From positions 1 to 64,000 of the forward strand of contig NZ_JAENJH010000005.1 of NCBI RefSeq assembly GCF_016595675.1: a DNA stretch of 64,000 nt, in the 5' to 3' direction. The stretch comes from Prauserella cavernicola (GTDB taxonomy: Bacteria > Actinomycetota > Actinomycetes > Mycobacteriales > Pseudonocardiaceae). This document shows positions 19,281 to 42,608 of this stretch, in pieces (the first letter of the stretch is position 1; every line of letters starts with the position of its first letter). The notes below the pieces were generated by a model, which made no database searches, was not told the origin of the DNA, and was given only the letters and a program-made list of their open reading frames with translations. Position numbers and translations under genes: made by a program.

Positions 19281-20645
19281 GTGCGACTCGTCCGCTTCCC
19301 CCGGCAACCCGCACGGGTCTCCGAGGACATCCGCGCCGCACTCGCCTCGCTCGGCCGGGGCCGCAACATCGTCGGTGGCGTCGCACTCGCCGGCGTGCAA
19401 CCGCCAGGCATGCCGAAAGCCGTCGACGCGGTACTGATCGTGCCGGGCGGCGTGCTGGTCGTGGTCGGCGTCGACCTGCCGGACCCGGCGATGCGGCTGG
19501 AGGCGCCGCTACAGGGCCGGTGGAAGTCCGACGGCTGGCCGCTGGTCAGCACCGACGACGCGGGCAACCCCGGCACCGCCGCCCTCGCACTGGCCGCGAC
19601 GGTCGGCGAGCGCGTCCAGGCCGCCGCGCCCGGCGCCACGCTCGGCACCGTCATCGCGGTGGGCCCGTTCGTCGAGACCGTGGAGCAGCCGCCCGCCGAC
19701 CTCGCCGGCTCGGTACGGGTCATCCACCCGACTCCCACGAGCATGCTCGCCGCCGCCGTGTCGCTCGCCGCCGCGGAGGAGCCGTTCACGGCGAGCCAGG
19801 TCCGCGCACTCGTGCAGGCACTCGAGCCGTCCACACCGGAACTGGACGACGACACGCTCGCCGCGGAAGGCTTCTCCACCGAGGAGCACCCGCTGGCACT
19901 GGCTCCACAGACCGTGCCGATCGACTACCCCTCGACCCCGGCCGCGATCCCCTCCCCCAAGCCCGTCACGGTCGCCGTCGCACCGGAACTGAACAGGCCG
20001 CCGCGGCCGGCTCCACTGCGCTCCCCCGCGCCGGCTCCGGCCCCGGCCGCACCGCCACCGTCGTTCACCACACCGCGGCGACCGCTGCGCTGGCGACCAC
20101 TCGCCGCCGCGGGCGTCGCCGTGGCCGTCGTCGGCGCGGTGCTCGCGATCGTGCTCGCTCAGGGCGGTGACGACAGCGTCTCGCCGTCGGTCACGCCTGC
20201 CGCCGTGGCCACCGCGGCAGGCGTCGAGTTCACCGAACGCGCCGCGTCCGCCGCCGACGACTGCGCTCCGCACGCGGCGGGCGACCTGCAGGTCGCGCTC
20301 CAGGACCTCGGCTGCACCGGGATCCGCAGAGCCAGCTTCGACACCACGGCCGACGGCACCGCGATCGCGGTCTCCGTGGCCGCACTGGAGTTCTCCGACG
20401 AGGCCGCGGCACAGGACTTCCTCCGGCTCGCCGACACCCCCGGCAGCGGCACGATCATCGACCTGGCCACCGAGAACACGAGCTGGCCCGGCGCCGCGCC
20501 CTCGTTCGCCAACGCGGCCTACGCGGGCTCGCTCGACGGCAGCACGGTGCGCCTGGTGCTCACCTGCGTGCTCGACGGGCCGTCGCGCCCCGACGACCCC
20601 CGGCTCGCCGAGGCCGCCAAGGCCGCACTACAGCTGCCGGTCTGA
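19281..20645 (+). CDS. Membrane protein with degenerate NERD-like N-terminal domain
   Basis: The product is 454 residues and of unknown function. The N-terminal part (about 10-110) has the pattern of a NERD (nuclease-related) domain: a leading helix, then AVDAVLIVPGGVLVVVGVDLP and a later GRWKSDGW. The usual acidic and lysine residues of the EVK motif are replaced (VVGVDL), so nuclease activity is unlikely. A Pro-rich linker (about 220-265) leads to one membrane helix (about 274-296) and a C-terminal extracytoplasmic domain with three cysteines (DDCAPHA, LGCTGI, LTCVLD). The GTG at 19281 has GGGGAGG five bases upstream. It is divergent from the subtilase. The NERD assignment is inference. Confidence 0.65.
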   Translation: MRLVRFPRQPARVSEDIRAALASLGRGRNIVGGVALAGVQPPGMPKAVDAVLIVPGGVLVVVGVDLPDPAMRLEAPLQGRWKSDGWPLVSTDDAGNPGTAALALAATVGERVQAAAPGATLGTVIAVGPFVETVEQPPADLAGSVRVIHPTPTSMLAAAVSLAAAEEPFTASQVRALVQALEPSTPELDDDTLAAEGFSTEEHPLALAPQTVPIDYPSTPAAIPSPKPVTVAVAPELNRPPRPAPLRSPAPAPAPAAPPPSFTTPRRPLRWRPLAAAGVAVAVVGAVLAIVLAQGGDDSVSPSVTPAAVATAAGVEFTERAASAADDCAPHAAGDLQVALQDLGCTGIRRASFDTTADGTAIAVSVAALEFSDEAAAQDFLRLADTPGSGTIIDLATENTSWPGAAPSFANAAYAGSLDGSTVRLVLTCVLDGPSRPDDPRLAEAAKAALQLPV

Positions 20646-20682
20646 CCTGGTCACTCCATTTCGGACATCATTTCCGCTTTCG

Positions 20683-20693
20683 TCCACAGTGGA
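20683..20693. repeat. Palindrome TCCACAGTGGA (copy 1)
   Basis: An 11-bp palindrome in the gap before the Lsr2-like gene. Two further copies of the form TCCAC-W-GTGGA occur in the window (30755-30765 and 39552-39562), and a 9-bp core (CCACTGTGG) lies at 40051-40059. No function is known to me. Confidence 0.5.
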
Positions 20694-20790
20694 GCAAAGA
20701 CGAGCTCGGCACGGTGGGTGATCTCACATTCATCGCCTCGTGAAACTCGCATCCCGGGCACCCCCAAGGGAAAACGCGTCAGGCGCTATC

Positions 20791-20806
20791 CTTGCTGCGA
20801 AGCAAG
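20791..20806 (+). promoter_or_regulatory. GNRA-type hairpin upstream of the Lsr2/H1-like gene
   Basis: CTTGCT-GCGA-AGCAAG forms a 6-bp stem closed by a GCGA tetraloop, 22 bp before the ATG and just ahead of the GGGGAGG ribosome binding site. A TATCCT hexamer at 20787-20792 could be the -10 element, in which case only part of the hairpin would be transcribed. Confidence 0.35.
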
Positions 20807-20828
20807 ATTTCAGTACGGGGAGGTCCTC

Positions 20829-21659
20829 ATGGCCAGGAGCACGGCGGTCGAGGTACTCGACGACATCAATGGAGAGCCCGCCGGGGAAACCGTGCGGTTC
20901 GCGTTGGACGGCGTCGAGTACGACATCGACCTCTCCGGCGACAACGCGGAAATCCTGCGCGAGACACTCGGCCGCTACGTCAGCGGCGGACGTCGGACCG
21001 GCGGCCGCAAGCGCATGCCCCGGGTGATCGCCGCCCCGGCGAAGTCGGCCAAGGCCTCGCCCGCAGGCACGCGAAAGTCGGCCGCCGCAAAGAAAACGGC
21101 TCCGAAAAAGGCCGCGGCCGTCACGAAGGCCACCCGCGGACGCACCGCGACGACCGCCGCGGCAAAAACCGCCAAGTCGACAAAGAAGGCCAAGTCCGCG
21201 GCCACGTCCACGGCGGCCAAGCCCGGTCGCAAGGCGGCGGGCACGAAGGCGGCTGCGAAGCCCGCCACCAAGGCCACACCGGCCCGCGGCACCGCGCCGA
21301 GCGCCCCCGCCAAGAGGGCCGCCGGGAAGACCGCAGCCGCTACGGGCGCCAAGACCGCGAAGGCCACACCGAAGACCACCGCCACGGCAACGACGAGGAA
21401 AACCGCCACGGGCTCGGGCGCCAAGACCGCCAAGGCTGCCCCGAAGGCCCCCGAAGCCTCGAGCGCCACAGCCGCACCGAAGACCGCCGCGGCTTCGAGC
21501 ACGAAGGCTGCCCCGAAGACCACCGCCGCCAAGACCCCGAAGACCGCCAAGGCCGCTCCGAAGGCCGCCGCGCCCAAGAAGGCCGCGGCGAAGAAGCCCC
21601 GCGGTGCCGCGAGCGCGGCACCGATCCCGCAGGTCAGCTTCTCCGCCGCGGCCCGCTGA
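20829..21659 (+). CDS. Lsr2 N-terminal domain fused to a histone H1-like Lys/Ala/Pro tail
   Basis: The product is 276 residues. Residues 1 to about 60 match the Lsr2 oligomerisation domain: LDDINGEPAGETVRFALDG, then VEYDIDLSGDNAEILRETL and GRYVSGGRR. Normal Lsr2 (about 110 residues) continues into a compact DNA-binding domain with an RGR AT-hook-like core. Here that domain is absent, replaced by about 210 residues of Ala, Lys, Pro and Thr in repeating units such as KTAK, KAAPK and KAAAKK, like eukaryotic H1 or the tails of mycobacterial HupB. A single TRGRTA segment near residue 100 is the only AT-hook-like piece. The likely role is a nucleoid-associated protein that oligomerises and binds DNA non-specifically through its basic tail (inference). 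The ATG at 20829 follows GGGGAGG. It converges on pntB 12 bp away. Confidence 0.85.
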   Translation: MARSTAVEVLDDINGEPAGETVRFALDGVEYDIDLSGDNAEILRETLGRYVSGGRRTGGRKRMPRVIAAPAKSAKASPAGTRKSAAAKKTAPKKAAAVTKATRGRTATTAAAKTAKSTKKAKSAATSTAAKPGRKAAGTKAAAKPATKATPARGTAPSAPAKRAAGKTAAATGAKTAKATPKTTATATTRKTATGSGAKTAKAAPKAPEASSATAAPKTAAASSTKAAPKTTAAKTPKTAKAAPKAAAPKKAAAKKPRGAASAAPIPQVSFSAAAR

Positions 21660-21671
21660 GCCGCGCCGGGC

Positions 21672-23060
21672 TCACAGCGCTTTGAGCTCCTCCACGATCT
21701 CGGCCACCGACGACTTCGCGTCGCCGAAGAGCATGGCCGTCTTCGGGTCGTAGAACAGGTCGTTGTCGATTCCGGCGAACCCGGAGCTCATCGAGCGCTT
21801 CAGCACGATCACCGAGCGGCTCGAGTTGACCGTCAGGATCGGCATCCCGTAGATCGGCGAACCGGGGTCGGTCTGTGCCGCCGGGTTGGTCACGTCGTTC
21901 GCGCCGATCACCAGCGCGACATCGGTCTGAGGGAACTGCGAGTTGCTCTCGTCCATCTCCTTGAGGCTCTCGTAGCGAACGTCGGCCTCGGCGAGCAGCA
22001 CGTTCATGTGGCCCGGCATGCGCCCGGCCACCGGGTGGATCGCGTAGAGCACCTCGATGCCCTTGCCCTCCAACAGGTCGGCCATCTCGCGCACGGCGTG
22101 CTGCGCCTGCGCCACCGCCATGCCGTAGCCGGGCACGACCATGACCTTGCTGGCATAGGCCATCTGGATCGCGGCGTCGCCCGCGCTGGTGCTGCGCACC
22201 GGACGCTGCTCCTCCGAACCGGAGCCCGCCGTCACCGCGGTGCCGCCGCCGAACCCGCCCGCGACGATGGCCGGGATCGAGCGGTTCATCGCCTTGGCCA
22301 TCAGGTTGGTGAGGATCGAGCCGGACGCGCCGACGATCATGCCTGCCACGATGAGCGCGGTGTTGTCGAGCGCGAGTCCCATCGCCGCGGCCGACAGTCC
22401 GGTGAAGGCGTTGAGCAGCGAGATCACCACGGGCATGTCGGCGCCGCCGATGGGCAGCACCACCATGACGCCCAGCGCGGCCGCCGCCAGCAGGACCCCG
22501 ATGATCAGCAACTCGGAGTTCGCCCCCGAGGCGATCGCGACGGAGCACGCGAGCGCGACGAGCACCAGTACGACGTTGAGCGGCTGCTGCAGCCTGCCCA
22601 CGGTGATCGGTCGCCCGGAGATCAGCTCCTGGAGCTTGCCGAACGCGATGTTGGAACCCCAGAACGACACCGAACCGACGATCGCGGCGAACAGCGAGGC
22701 GATGGCGACGTAGAGCGGTTCGTGCGCGTAGCCGTCGGTGGTGCGGAACTCGACCCAGGCGATCAGCGCGACCGCGCCACCGCCGACACCGTTGAACAAC
22801 GCCACCATCTGCGGCATCGCGGTCATCTTCACCCTGCGGGCCGCGGGGACGCCGACCACGGTGCCGAGCACGAGGCCCAGCACGATCAGCCACCAGTTGC
22901 CCATGCCCGGCAGCAGCAGCGTCGCGATCACCGCGATTCCCATGCCGACGGCGGCGATCCAGTTCCCGCGCACCGCGGTGCGCGGTCCGGTCAGGCCCAT
23001 GAGGCCGTAGATGAACAGTGCGAACGCGATGATGTAGAGGACGGAGACGAAGGTCGTCAC
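21672..23060 (-). CDS. pntB: NAD(P) transhydrogenase subunit beta
   Basis: The product is 462 residues. The N-terminal two thirds hold about nine membrane helices (domain II); the C-terminal part (about 290-462) is the NADP(H)-binding domain III, with GYGMAVAQAQHAVREM and LVIGANDVTNPAAQ. Together with PntAA and PntAB it uses the proton gradient to drive hydride transfer from NADH to NADP+, a source of NADPH for the biosynthetic reactions encoded nearby. The GTG start overlaps the pntAB stop by 4 bp. It is last in the pntAA-pntAB-pntB operon. Confidence 0.96.
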   Translation of the reverse strand: MTTFVSVLYIIAFALFIYGLMGLTGPRTAVRGNWIAAVGMGIAVIATLLLPGMGNWWLIVLGLVLGTVVGVPAARRVKMTAMPQMVALFNGVGGGAVALIAWVEFRTTDGYAHEPLYVAIASLFAAIVGSVSFWGSNIAFGKLQELISGRPITVGRLQQPLNVVLVLVALACSVAIASGANSELLIIGVLLAAAALGVMVVLPIGGADMPVVISLLNAFTGLSAAAMGLALDNTALIVAGMIVGASGSILTNLMAKAMNRSIPAIVAGGFGGGTAVTAGSGSEEQRPVRSTSAGDAAIQMAYASKVMVVPGYGMAVAQAQHAVREMADLLEGKGIEVLYAIHPVAGRMPGHMNVLLAEADVRYESLKEMDESNSQFPQTDVALVIGANDVTNPAAQTDPGSPIYGMPILTVNSSRSVIVLKRSMSSGFAGIDNDLFYDPKTAMLFGDAKSSVAEIVEELKAL

Positions 23061-23365
23061 TTCTCGACCTCCTTGGCGGCGTCCTGCTTGGGTTTCTCCT
23101 TGAACATCGCGAGCATGCGGTCGGTGACGAGGAATCCGCCGACGACGTTGATCGTGCCGAACGCGATGGCGATGACGAGCAGGATCTTGTTCAGCACGCC
23201 CTCGGCGCCCATGCCGAGCACGATCAGGCCGCCCAGCAGCACGATGCCGTGAATGGCGTTGGTGCCCGACATCAGTGGCGTGTGGAGCGTGTTGGGCACC
23301 TTCGAGATCACCGCGAACCCGACGAAACCGGCGAGCACCAGCACGGCGAGGCTTTCGACCAACAT
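23057..23365 (-). CDS. pntAB: NAD(P) transhydrogenase subunit alpha 2 (membrane part)
   Basis: The product is 102 residues with three to four membrane helices (LAVLVLAGFVGFAVISKVP, the first). It contains the family segment PLMSGTNAIHGIVLLGG. It is the split membrane portion of the alpha subunit, as in Rhodospirillum and most actinobacteria, rather than the fused E. coli PntA. Start and stop overlap its neighbours by 1 and 4 bp, so all three subunits are translationally coupled. Confidence 0.95.
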   Translation of the reverse strand: MLVESLAVLVLAGFVGFAVISKVPNTLHTPLMSGTNAIHGIVLLGGLIVLGMGAEGVLNKILLVIAIAFGTINVVGGFLVTDRMLAMFKEKPKQDAAKEVEK

Positions 23366-24495
23366 CAGTTCACCTCCTCGTCACGGCCGGCGACGCACGC
23401 GCCCGCCACCACCTCGTCGGAGAAGTCGACGGCGAGTCGGCCCTCACCGTCGACGATCAGCTCCAGCAGCTCGGTCAGGTTGCGCGCGTACAGCTCGCTC
23501 GCGTGCACGGGCATCTCGGCGGGCAGGTTGAGGGGCGAGCTGATCGTCACGTCGCCGACGACGATGTCCTCGCCAGGTTCGGTGAGCTCGCAGTTGCCGC
23601 CGGTCTCACCGGCCATGTCGACGATGACGCTGCCGGGCTTCATGCCGCGCACGGCCTCCGCGGTCACCAGCGTCGGCGCCTTGCGTCCCGGTACCAGCGC
23701 GGTGGTGATCACGACGTCGAATCCGCCGATGGCCTCGGTGAGCCGCCGCTGCTGGTCCGCGCGTTCCTCCTCGGTGAGCTCCCGCGCGTAACCGCCCTCG
23801 CCCGCCGCCGAGATGCCGAGGTCGAGCCACTGCGCGCCGACCGAGCGGACCTGCTCGGCCACCTCGGGCCGCACGTCGTAGCCCGTGGCCTGCGCACCGA
23901 GCCGCTTGGCCGTGGCCAGGGCCTGCAGCCCCGCGACCCCGACGCCGAGCACCAGTGCCTTGGCGGGCGGCACCGTGCCCGCGGCGGTGGTGAGCATGGG
24001 GAAGAACTTGGGCAGCCGCTGGGCCGCGAGCAGCACCGCGCGGTAGCCGGCGACGTTGGCCTGCGACGACAGCGCGTCCATGGCCTGCGCCCGCGAGATC
24101 CGCGGGATCGACTCGACGGCGAACGCCGTGACGCCTGCCTTCTGCATGGCGGCGACCTCGGCCTTATTGGTGAGCGGCGCGAGGAACCCGATCAGCACGG
24201 TCCCCGGTTTGAGCCGTTCGATGTCGGAGACGCTCGGCGGCACGACGGTGAGCACGATGTCGGCGCTCCACGCGTCGCCCGTCGTCGCGCCCGCCTCGGT
24301 GAACAGCCCGTCGGCGAGCTGGGCGCCCTCGCCCGCGCCCGGTTCGACGACGATCTTCAGCCCTCGTCTGGCGAGCCGCTCGATGAGCTTCGGTACCAAC
24401 GCGACGCGGCGTTCACCCGGTTTGGTCTCCTTGACCACGCCGATCGTCAGCGGCGGTCCGGTCTGAGATTCGGTAGGCGATTCGGTCTCGGTCAC
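23365..24495 (-). CDS. pntAA: NAD(P) transhydrogenase subunit alpha 1 (NAD-binding part)
   Basis: The product is 376 residues, the soluble NAD(H)-binding domain I, related to alanine dehydrogenase. Motifs are VVKETKPGERRVALVP at the N-terminus, a Rossmann segment VLGVGVAGLQALATAKRLGA, and GYDVRPEVAEQVRSVGA. The GTG at 24495 is preceded by GAGAGGA at 7 nt; the frame is open for 28 more codons upstream, but they lack homology. It is the first gene of the operon and divergent from yjbQ. Confidence 0.95.
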   Translation of the reverse strand: MTETESPTESQTGPPLTIGVVKETKPGERRVALVPKLIERLARRGLKIVVEPGAGEGAQLADGLFTEAGATTGDAWSADIVLTVVPPSVSDIERLKPGTVLIGFLAPLTNKAEVAAMQKAGVTAFAVESIPRISRAQAMDALSSQANVAGYRAVLLAAQRLPKFFPMLTTAAGTVPPAKALVLGVGVAGLQALATAKRLGAQATGYDVRPEVAEQVRSVGAQWLDLGISAAGEGGYARELTEEERADQQRRLTEAIGGFDVVITTALVPGRKAPTLVTAEAVRGMKPGSVIVDMAGETGGNCELTEPGEDIVVGDVTISSPLNLPAEMPVHASELYARNLTELLELIVDGEGRLAVDFSDEVVAGACVAGRDEEVN

Positions 24496-24592
24496 CTTGG
24501 CGTCCTCTCGGGCCTGCGGTCCGGCGTGGTGACCATACTGGACGACAACGTAATCCAGATCACGTGACGAGTGTCGCAATCACCACAGTTTG

Positions 24593-41216: not shown

Positions 41217-42608
41217 GTGCCGCATTACGACCTGGTGATCATCGGGACCGGGTCGGGGAACTCCATCCTCGACCAGCGCTTCGCGGACAAGAAGATCGCC
41301 GTCGTGGAGAAGGGCGTATTCGGCGGCACGTGCCTGAACGTCGGCTGCATCCCGACCAAGATGTTCGTGCACGCCGCCGACGTCGCGGCCTCGCCCGCCT
41401 CGGGAGCGCGGCTCGGCGTCGACGCGACGCTGGACGGCGTGCGCTGGCCCGAGATCCGCGACCGCGTCTTCGGCCGGATCGACCCCATCGCCGCGGGCGG
41501 TCGCGAGTACCGCACCGAGCACGAGGACAACGCCAACGTCACCGTCTACGAGGGCGAGGCTCGCTTCACCGGGTACAAGGAGCTGACCGTCGAGCTGCCC
41601 GGCGGCGCGGAGACCCTGACCGCCGACCAGTTCGTGCTCGCCGCGGGCGGCCGGGCCGTGGCGCCCGATGTCCCCGGGCTGGCCGAGACCGGCTACCACA
41701 CCTCCGACACGATCATGCGGATCGACGAGCTGCCCTCGCGCATGGTGGTGCTCGGCAGCGGGTTCATCGGCGCCGAGTTCGCGCACGTCTTCGCCTCGTT
41801 CGGCGTCGAGGTGACGGTGGTGGCCCGCTCGGGCGCACTGCTGCGCAGCGAGGACGACGACATCAGCGAGCGCTACACCGAGCTGGCGTCGAGCCGCTTC
41901 GACGTCCGGCTCAACCGCAAGACCGTGCGTGCGCACCGCACGCCGACCGGCGTGGCGCTGGAACTGGAGGGGCCCGACGGCGCCGAAACCGTCGAGGCCG
42001 ACCTGCTGCTCGTGGCCACCGGCAGGCACCCCAACTCCGACGTGCTCGACGTCGAGAAGACCGGTGTGACCACGCTGCCCTCGGGCCACGTCGAGGTCGA
42101 CGACCACCAGCGCACGGCGGTGGAGGGCATCTACGCGCTCGGCGACATCAGCTCGCCCTACGAGCTCAAGCACGTCGCCAACCACGAGGCCAGGGTGGTG
42201 CAGCACAACCTGCTGCACCCGGACGAGCCGATCGCCTCGGACCACCGCTTCGTGCCGCACGCCGTGTTCACGGCGCCGCAGATCGCCACGGTGGGAATCA
42301 CCGAACGCGACGCGCGCGAGCGGGGCGTTCGCTACGTGACCGCCACGCAGGACTACGCGGGCATCGCCTACGGCTGGGCGATGGAGGACACGTCGAGCTT
42401 CGCGAAGCTGCTCGCCGACCCGGCGACCGGGCAGCTGCTCGGGGCGCACATCATCGGCCCGCAGGCCGCGACGTTGATCCAGACGCTGGTGCAGGCGATG
42501 AGCTTCGGCCTCGACGCCCGCTCGATGGCGCGCGGTCAGTACTGGATCCACCCGGCCATGCCGGAGCTGATCGAGAACGCGCTGCTGAACCTGCCGCTCG
42601 ACGAGTAG
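41217..42608 (+). CDS. mtr: Mycothione reductase
   Basis: The product is 463 residues, a flavoprotein disulfide reductase that regenerates mycothiol from mycothione with NADPH. The redox pair is Cys39/Cys44 in [11 protein letters not shown]; the FAD fold is [12 protein letters not shown]; the NADPH fold is [17 protein letters not shown]; and the catalytic His is in [15 protein letters not shown]. It differs from lipoamide dehydrogenase by the N-terminal GTGSGN and fits Mtr closely. This marks the organism as a mycothiol-producing actinobacterium. The GTG at 41217 starts the protein. Its stop directly abuts the convergent MFS gene. Confidence 0.94.

Follow-up and report, generated by a model that had tools for sequence, protein, structure and literature searches.

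Within a 64,000-nucleotide stretch of the Prauserella cavernicola genome (the window), we find a gene whose 276-aa product joins the dimerization domain of Lsr2 to a long, histone H1-like tail and lacks the Lsr2 DNA-binding domain. We call proteins of this build type A, and consider it rather probable that type A is an Lsr2 paralog that has become an accessory, sequence-blind nucleoid-associated protein. Beyond what the original prediction, made from the DNA letters of the window, had described, we find that the gene is conserved within a recurring neighborhood in nine genera of Pseudonocardiaceae, that its product ends on an invariant motif, and that the family harbors another clade of Lsr2 paralogs that likewise lack a DNA-binding domain, type B. 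The coordinates of these features are collected in Table 1.

Table 1. Features of the type A gene, its neighborhood and related loci. Positions are those of the window unless a locus handle is given.
Feature	Position	Strand	Basis or remark
Upstream neighbor, 491 aa	19170-20645	+	matches neither Pfam nor NCBIfam at E 0.001; recurs in 19 of 20 loci from relatives
Likely ribosome-binding stretch GGGGAGG	20817-20823	+	read directly in the sequence
Type A gene (Lsr2 domain and H1-like tail, 276 aa)	20829-21659	+	translation, Pfam PF11774, 40 orthologs
Lsr2 dimerization domain, residues 1-58	20829-21002	+	Pfam PF11774; ortholog profile against structures
Basic junction RRTGGRKRMPRVI, residues 55-67	20991-21029	+	ortholog alignment
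H1-like tail, residues 63-266, 204 aa	21015-21626	+	composition; predicted unstructured
C-terminal motif PQVSFSAAAR, residues 267-276	21627-21656	+	40-ortholog alignment
Convergent downstream pnt genes, NAD(P) transhydrogenase	21672-24579	-	in 17 of 20 relatives' loci
pntB, NAD(P) transhydrogenase beta subunit	21672-23060	-	family match
pntAb, transhydrogenase small subunit	23057-23365	-	name assigned solely from position
pntAa, NAD(P) transhydrogenase alpha subunit	23365-24579	-	family match
Syntenic full-length Lsr2 genes, genera g31 and g27	L322:2533-2859 and L324:8423-8608		PF23359 confirmed for G033
Type B example	L174:1501-1992	+	full-length lsr2 at L174:775-1140 (-)

Results

Domain architecture of type A

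An Lsr2 N-terminal domain had been predicted in residues 1-60, and it is readily recognized. Pfam PF11774 covers residues 1-58 (E 1.1e-21; 76.6 bits, where the cut-off is 29.6) and is the sole match at E up to 1, with no HU fold at the N-terminus. We translated 40 distinct type A orthologs, 33 from a search of the family and 7 from a search of the order, all of them from Pseudonocardiaceae. A profile of these sequences matches crystal structures of the M. tuberculosis Lsr2 dimerization domain (4e1p, E 1.9e-24; 4e1r, E 6.2e-24), and in the profile-structure alignment Asp27 and Arg44, invariant in all 40, fall on Asp28 and Arg45, the residues reported to form the dimer salt bridge of M. tuberculosis Lsr2 (PMC3374832). 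The domain passes into a basic junction in which R55, R56, G58, G59 and R60 are invariant among the orthologs and K61 and R65 are at least 90% conserved. PF11774, the Asp-Arg salt-bridge pair and a basic GRR-x-GGR junction are all shared with M. tuberculosis Lsr2 and with the full-length Lsr2s of the host. An AlphaFold2 monomer of low confidence (mean pLDDT 55, pTM 0.22) has the strand-strand-helix order of Lsr2 (strands at 21-26 and 29-34, helix at 38-56) followed by an unstructured tail, and a Foldseek search with this model ranked the Lsr2 structure 4e1p first, at an E of only 0.22.

The DNA-binding domain is missing, as had been proposed. PF23359, which represents that domain with its RGR/QGR hook, is not found in type A at E up to 1; in a full-length Lsr2 of the host (L001), our positive control, it is detected at E 8e-21. 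A six-frame scan of positions 20700-21900 with a custom DNA-binding-domain profile yields a best domain of -3.6 bits, compared with 74.9 bits for the same profile at the canonical lsr2 locus, scanned in three frames. The original prediction had allowed that a frameshift might conceal the domain; since none appears in any of the six frames, none is hidden in this way, and the architecture is kept in the 40 orthologs. A lone RGR triplet stands in the tail of 6 of the 40, including that of the window, with no accompanying domain, and at this frequency we rejected an AT-hook reading of the tail. Type A is an Lsr2-domain protein, yet it is not Lsr2, because the DNA-binding domain that defines Lsr2 was looked for and is absent. 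NCBIfam has no family for the whole protein. The 7.2-Mb genome of the host, assembled in 90 contigs, contains four Lsr2-domain genes, namely type A and three full-length genes whose products of 115, 116 and 135 aa all have the DNA-binding domain.

By direct reading, the ATG start lies five bases 3' of the GGGGAGG stretch. The G+C fractions at codon positions 1, 2 and 3 are 0.59, 0.71 and 0.87 for the whole reading frame and 0.56, 0.78 and 0.87 for the tail, with a third-position value of 0.88 in the domain. A hydrophobic reading frame of 200 codons runs antisense to the tail (20975-21577, minus strand), which we take to be a by-product of GC-rich Lys/Ala codons and no gene.

The H1-like tail and the C-terminal motif

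Type A differs from Lsr2 in carrying a tail of about 200 aa in place of PF23359 and a conserved C-terminal motif of its own. The tail, put by the original prediction at about 210 residues rich in Lys, Ala, Pro and Thr, spans 204 Ala/Lys/Thr/Pro-rich residues, with 47 Lys or Arg and a single Asp or Glu. Among the 40 orthologs its length ranges from 70 to 332 aa (median 169), with a median of 26% Lys plus Arg and a net charge of +0.23 per residue; the make-up is 31% Ala, 18% Thr, 18% Lys, 8% Pro and 7% Arg, and aromatic residues account for 3 of 6,940. Composition is thus constant among orthologs, with order and length free to vary, and the spread in length indicates that repeat slippage probably occurs. 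In 10 close ortholog pairs that we selected, the first 62 residues are 87-100% identical and the tail 52-92%; dN is higher in the tail than in the N-terminal part in all 10, and the two ends of the protein have low dN in most.

The proposed likeness to H1 and to the HupB tail holds as one of composition, and we do not claim homology. Similar basic repeats are also reported for actinobacterial HupB, Ku and topoisomerase I (PMC5676037), so that the tail is uninformative on descent from H1. A weak match of the tail profile to the N-termini of sigma factors (E 0.026) is put down to composition as well.

At the C-terminus, P267, V269, F271 and S272 are invariant in all 40 orthologs, each of which has P-x-V-x-F-S-[A/S] followed by 2 to 13 residues to the end; apart from the Lsr2 domain and the basic junction, no other stretch is invariant. 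The segment from three residues before the motif to the end of the protein is 89-100% identical in 8 of the 10 close pairs (75% and 69% in the others). When 16,532 six-frame, stop-to-stop reading frames of at least 60 codons from the retrieved loci were searched, with overlapping loci counted repeatedly, the matches to the motif came from 40 distinct C-termini, all of type A. A codon-pattern search of the host's own genome, so restrictive that it would miss the motif of the window itself and hence of little weight in either direction, returned four other places, where the frames continue for 41-172 codons before a stop; none of these is therefore an end motif. In the AlphaFold2 model, pLDDT rises at residues 261-270 to a mean of 73, against 44-56 in the blocks from residue 71 to 260. 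A tail that holds DNA purely by charge would not need an invariant P-x-V-x-F-S.

Distribution and neighborhood of type A

The original prediction proposed searching the N-terminal domain against actinobacterial proteomes and tabulating which matches have an H1-like tail and which genomes also have a normal lsr2. With the first 64 residues as query, we searched 150 family genomes from 46 genera; among the matches listed, type A is present in 33 genomes and nine genera. On translation each of the 33 top family matches proved to be tailed, and all 33 genomes have at least one further Lsr2-domain gene, with the DNA-binding domain confirmed for the retrieved loci only. Type A occurs in 33 of the 34 sampled genomes of its nine genera, including the named relatives Prauserella muralis, P. 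shujinwangii and P. endophytica. In the exception (G026, one of six sampled genomes of genus g24), type A is missing and pntB and an oxidoreductase gene abut, so the gene is dispensable there. Across 397 genomes of the order, an N-terminal profile found 32 places that score at least 113 bits; every one belongs to Pseudonocardiaceae and is tailed, seven are new, and the next match follows after a gap, at 101 bits. Across 394 genomes of the class, two matches lay above this gap, both in Pseudonocardiaceae, and no type A was found outside the family. These searches scored about the best 15 candidates per genome, with family matches listed down to about E 5e-17, and rare divergent cases may escape.

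As a control, 20 Lsr2 places were selected from the class search for a long frame, and 20 of 20 keep the DNA-binding domain (one locus, L153, repeats another, L097); 20 places selected in this way from the family comprise full-length Lsr2s and three type B genes. Two unusual Lsr2 variants were seen alongside. One, in genus g17, is a 146-aa Lsr2-domain protein without the DNA-binding domain (L202:1429-1869, minus strand) that has an arginine run and no FSA-type end; the other is a 211-aa Lsr2 (L142, G044:C1:3333500-3336500) in which, by eye, a second stretch resembling the DNA-binding domain follows a Pro/Ala/Glu-rich linker.

The surroundings of type A recur. In the 14-kb loci of 20 relatives, DUF3145 and the 491-aa gene are each found in 19, pntB, pntAb and pntAa in 17 (the pnt genes are missing in three), an FAD/NAD oxidoreductase gene in 17 and a subtilase gene in 7, and type A is the sole Lsr2-domain gene in all 20. 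Recurrence of DUF3145 and pntB to this extent is not the picture of carriage on a genomic island or another mobile element. Unlike 17 of the 20 relatives (L113-L132), the window has no FAD/NAD oxidoreductase gene beside type A (20645-20829), and the relatives' oxidoreductase is about 26-30% identical to the window's reading frame at 41217-42608. When 46 genera were searched for DUF3145, with one genome each, matches were obtained in 45 and the nine type A genera were the nine best scorers, a ranking that fits vertical descent from one origin.

We also considered, and rejected, a phage or plasmid origin of type A, given these recurring chromosomal neighbors and the content of viral contigs. A set of 93 Lsr2-domain reading frames, drawn from 65 viral-contig loci (48 and 17 in two scans, with one contig shared) and 25 bacterial loci, includes five in which no DNA-binding domain is recognized, and neither type A nor type B is among these five. 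Lsr2-like genes are present in phage and plasmid records (72 and 175, respectively), all at less than 80% identity.

In a tree of the N-terminal domain with 91 rows (19 type A, 11 type B and 61 full-length) and 62 columns, type A lies on one side of a branch with support of 100/99, on a long stem of 0.65 changes per column; a larger domain tree, with 38 type A proteins among 194 rows, gives the corresponding branch an SH-aLRT of 97. A full-length Lsr2 gene occupies the syntenic site, directly after the 491-aa gene, in genera g31 and g27 (G033 and G029), which suggests how type A may have arisen. As ancestors of type A these two genes are not favored by the tree, which at 62 columns is short and does not group them with it; forcing the grouping is not rejected (p-AU 0.10). 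We infer that an Lsr2 gene, whether native to the site that separates the 491-aa gene from the pnt genes or relocated there, probably lost its DNA-binding domain once, in the ancestor of the nine genera, and that type A would have been retained beside full-length Lsr2 ever since.

A second class of Lsr2 paralogs

Type B, first met among the long-frame Lsr2 matches, is our name for a second class of Lsr2 paralogs that lacks the DNA-binding domain and has no histone-like tail. Of the 150 family genomes, a profile search recovers type B from 28, which fall in nine genera that have no type A among the family matches listed (to about E 5e-17). In all 28 loci (L173-L200, one per genome) it is divergent from an adjoining full-length lsr2. 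A search of 200 genomes of the order yielded four places that score at least 164 bits, each within Pseudonocardiaceae, with the next match at 88 bits, and in 246 genomes of the class nothing exceeded 82 bits. In one genome, the search listing shows five full or partial type B matches within about 8 kb (G111:C1:1707239-1715664), as if amplified.

Both type B proteins tested have PF11774 without PF23359. The Lsr2 domain is followed by a predicted helix (residues 66-105) and a variable, mostly acidic linker that is not H1-like, and the protein ends on V-x-x-P-x-F-x-x-A, invariant in 28 of 28; the model pLDDT is 65 for residues 151-160, compared with 38-49 for residues 101-150. The ends SLPLF and SLPQF resemble a clamp-binding peptide, a reading that we rejected on the grounds that their spacing departs from its consensus. 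Types A and B have in common PF11774 without PF23359 and a similar end, whereas type B is a separate clade and sits beside lsr2. On the domain tree type B lies on one side of a branch with support of 100/99 (11 of 91 rows) and an SH-aLRT of 95 in the 194-row tree. Joining the two types gives a p-AU of 0.35, and a joint origin is thus neither shown nor rejected.

Discussion

Lsr2 paralogs, H1-tailed HU and truncated H-NS are already known. The combination of an Lsr2 domain with an H1-like tail, which the original prediction did not recognize as a described class, is likewise absent from the literature that we searched, which was mostly open-access, with subscription journals and preprints mostly outside its scope; the same literature contains no paper with both 'Lsr2' and 'Pseudonocardiaceae'. 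The nearest parallel in build is HupB of mycobacteria and other actinobacteria, in which, as in type A, a long basic tail of the H1 type is described as extending from a folded domain at the N-terminus; this tail is reported to be indispensable for nucleoid association in vivo (PMC5676037). The fold of type A is that of Lsr2, not HU, and the portions of that source available to us mention no end motif for HupB (PMC5676037). Among Lsr2 paralogs, MSMEG_1060 of M. smegmatis is reported to lack the RGR hook and to cover the nucleoid; set against type A by description only, it differs in that a C-terminal domain is described for it (PMC8125055).

As an accessory, sequence-blind nucleoid-associated protein, type A may act in three steps. 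Its N-terminal domain, being intact, would dimerize and perhaps form chains as in Lsr2, a step suggested by the invariance of the Asp-Arg pair that is reported to anchor the Lsr2 dimer (PMC3374832). The disordered tail, with about 45 positive charges, would hold DNA without reading its sequence, as its composition and the analogy with HupB and MSMEG_1060 suggest, and a dimer with two such tails would bridge or compact DNA anywhere, whereas Lsr2 targets AT-rich DNA. The conserved end peptide P-x-V-x-F-S-[A/S], carried at the tip of the flexible tail, may then dock on one defined surface of a partner, for which the Lsr2 fold itself and other nucleoid proteins are candidates. The tail could also bind RNA or another polyanion.

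Alternatively, type A may be an antagonist or tuner of Lsr2 that forms mixed dimers or chains with it and thereby weakens, caps or redirects its filaments, much as H-NST does with H-NS. We consider this unlikely, although the dimer interface residues are conserved as in Lsr2 and at least one further Lsr2-domain gene accompanies type A in each of the 33 family genomes. Precedents have been reported: when the N-terminal part of CgpS, an Lsr2-like protein, is over-expressed, targets are derepressed and the prophage is induced (PMC7074111), and H-NST counteracts H-NS (PMC6936261, PMC7074111). Truncated Lsr2 derivatives are listed as 'unidentified' in a 2019 review (PMC6936261). Furthermore, H-NST is itself reported to bind two regulatory regions (PMC7074111), so that a DNA-binding antagonist is conceivable. 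Nevertheless, an antagonist has no need for a long tail that grips DNA, type A is the only Lsr2-domain gene in its 14-kb loci whereas type B adjoins lsr2, and the long stem of type A in the domain tree could mean separate dimers formed only with itself. Given the DNA-gripping tail and the locus away from lsr2, type A is less likely than type B to be a pure antagonist, and type B is the better candidate for a direct modulator of Lsr2. H-NST and truncated H-NS, as described, share with type A the principle of a xenogeneic silencer's oligomerization part without its DNA-binding domain; H-NST belongs to an unrelated family, is short and lies on genomic islands, whereas type A has a recurring chromosomal neighborhood and a long basic tail.

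It is also conceivable, and in our estimation improbable, that type A is a DNA-bound tether whose end peptide P-x-V-x-F-S-A brings to the nucleoid a partner that acts in replication, segregation or division. Such a role would suit the one invariant stretch beyond the Lsr2 domain and junction and the rise in pLDDT there, both of which have counterparts in type B; the proteins named, however, are candidate partners only. Finally, a decaying Lsr2 whose tail is out of frame or a product of repeat slippage, in short a frameshift, pseudogene or artefact, might account for tail lengths of 70-332 aa and is refuted: most pairs have low dN at either end of the protein, each of the 40 orthologs carries the motif and is translated up to it without a stop, third-position G+C in the tail is 0.87, and the other frames show no DNA-binding domain.

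To our knowledge, little is known about how host factors limit or relieve Lsr2 filaments. Lsr2 is reported to silence AT-rich, often acquired genes as well as antibiotic gene clusters in actinobacteria (PMC7641383). Tentatively, and with more doubt than confidence, we suggest that Lsr2 partners devoid of a DNA-reading domain arose as a class in Pseudonocardiaceae on one or two occasions, and that these would blend with Lsr2 and tune filament length, bridging and silencing. Each partner would combine an Lsr2 dimer domain with a flexible arm, histone-like in type A or built of a helix and an acidic linker in type B, and with an end peptide that would dock either back on the Lsr2 fold or on some partner shared by both types; type A would be the sequence-blind subunit and type B the DNA-free subunit.

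The architecture of type A means that a bacterial chromatin protein can swap its sequence-reading domain for an H1-like tail with the dimer fold kept. If the suggestion of a partner class holds true, the family would possess, for Lsr2, an equivalent of H-NST/Hha that is encoded in the chromosome and inherited vertically. Two conserved families of Lsr2 paralogs that lack a DNA-binding domain would offer direct genetic access to the control of silent clusters.
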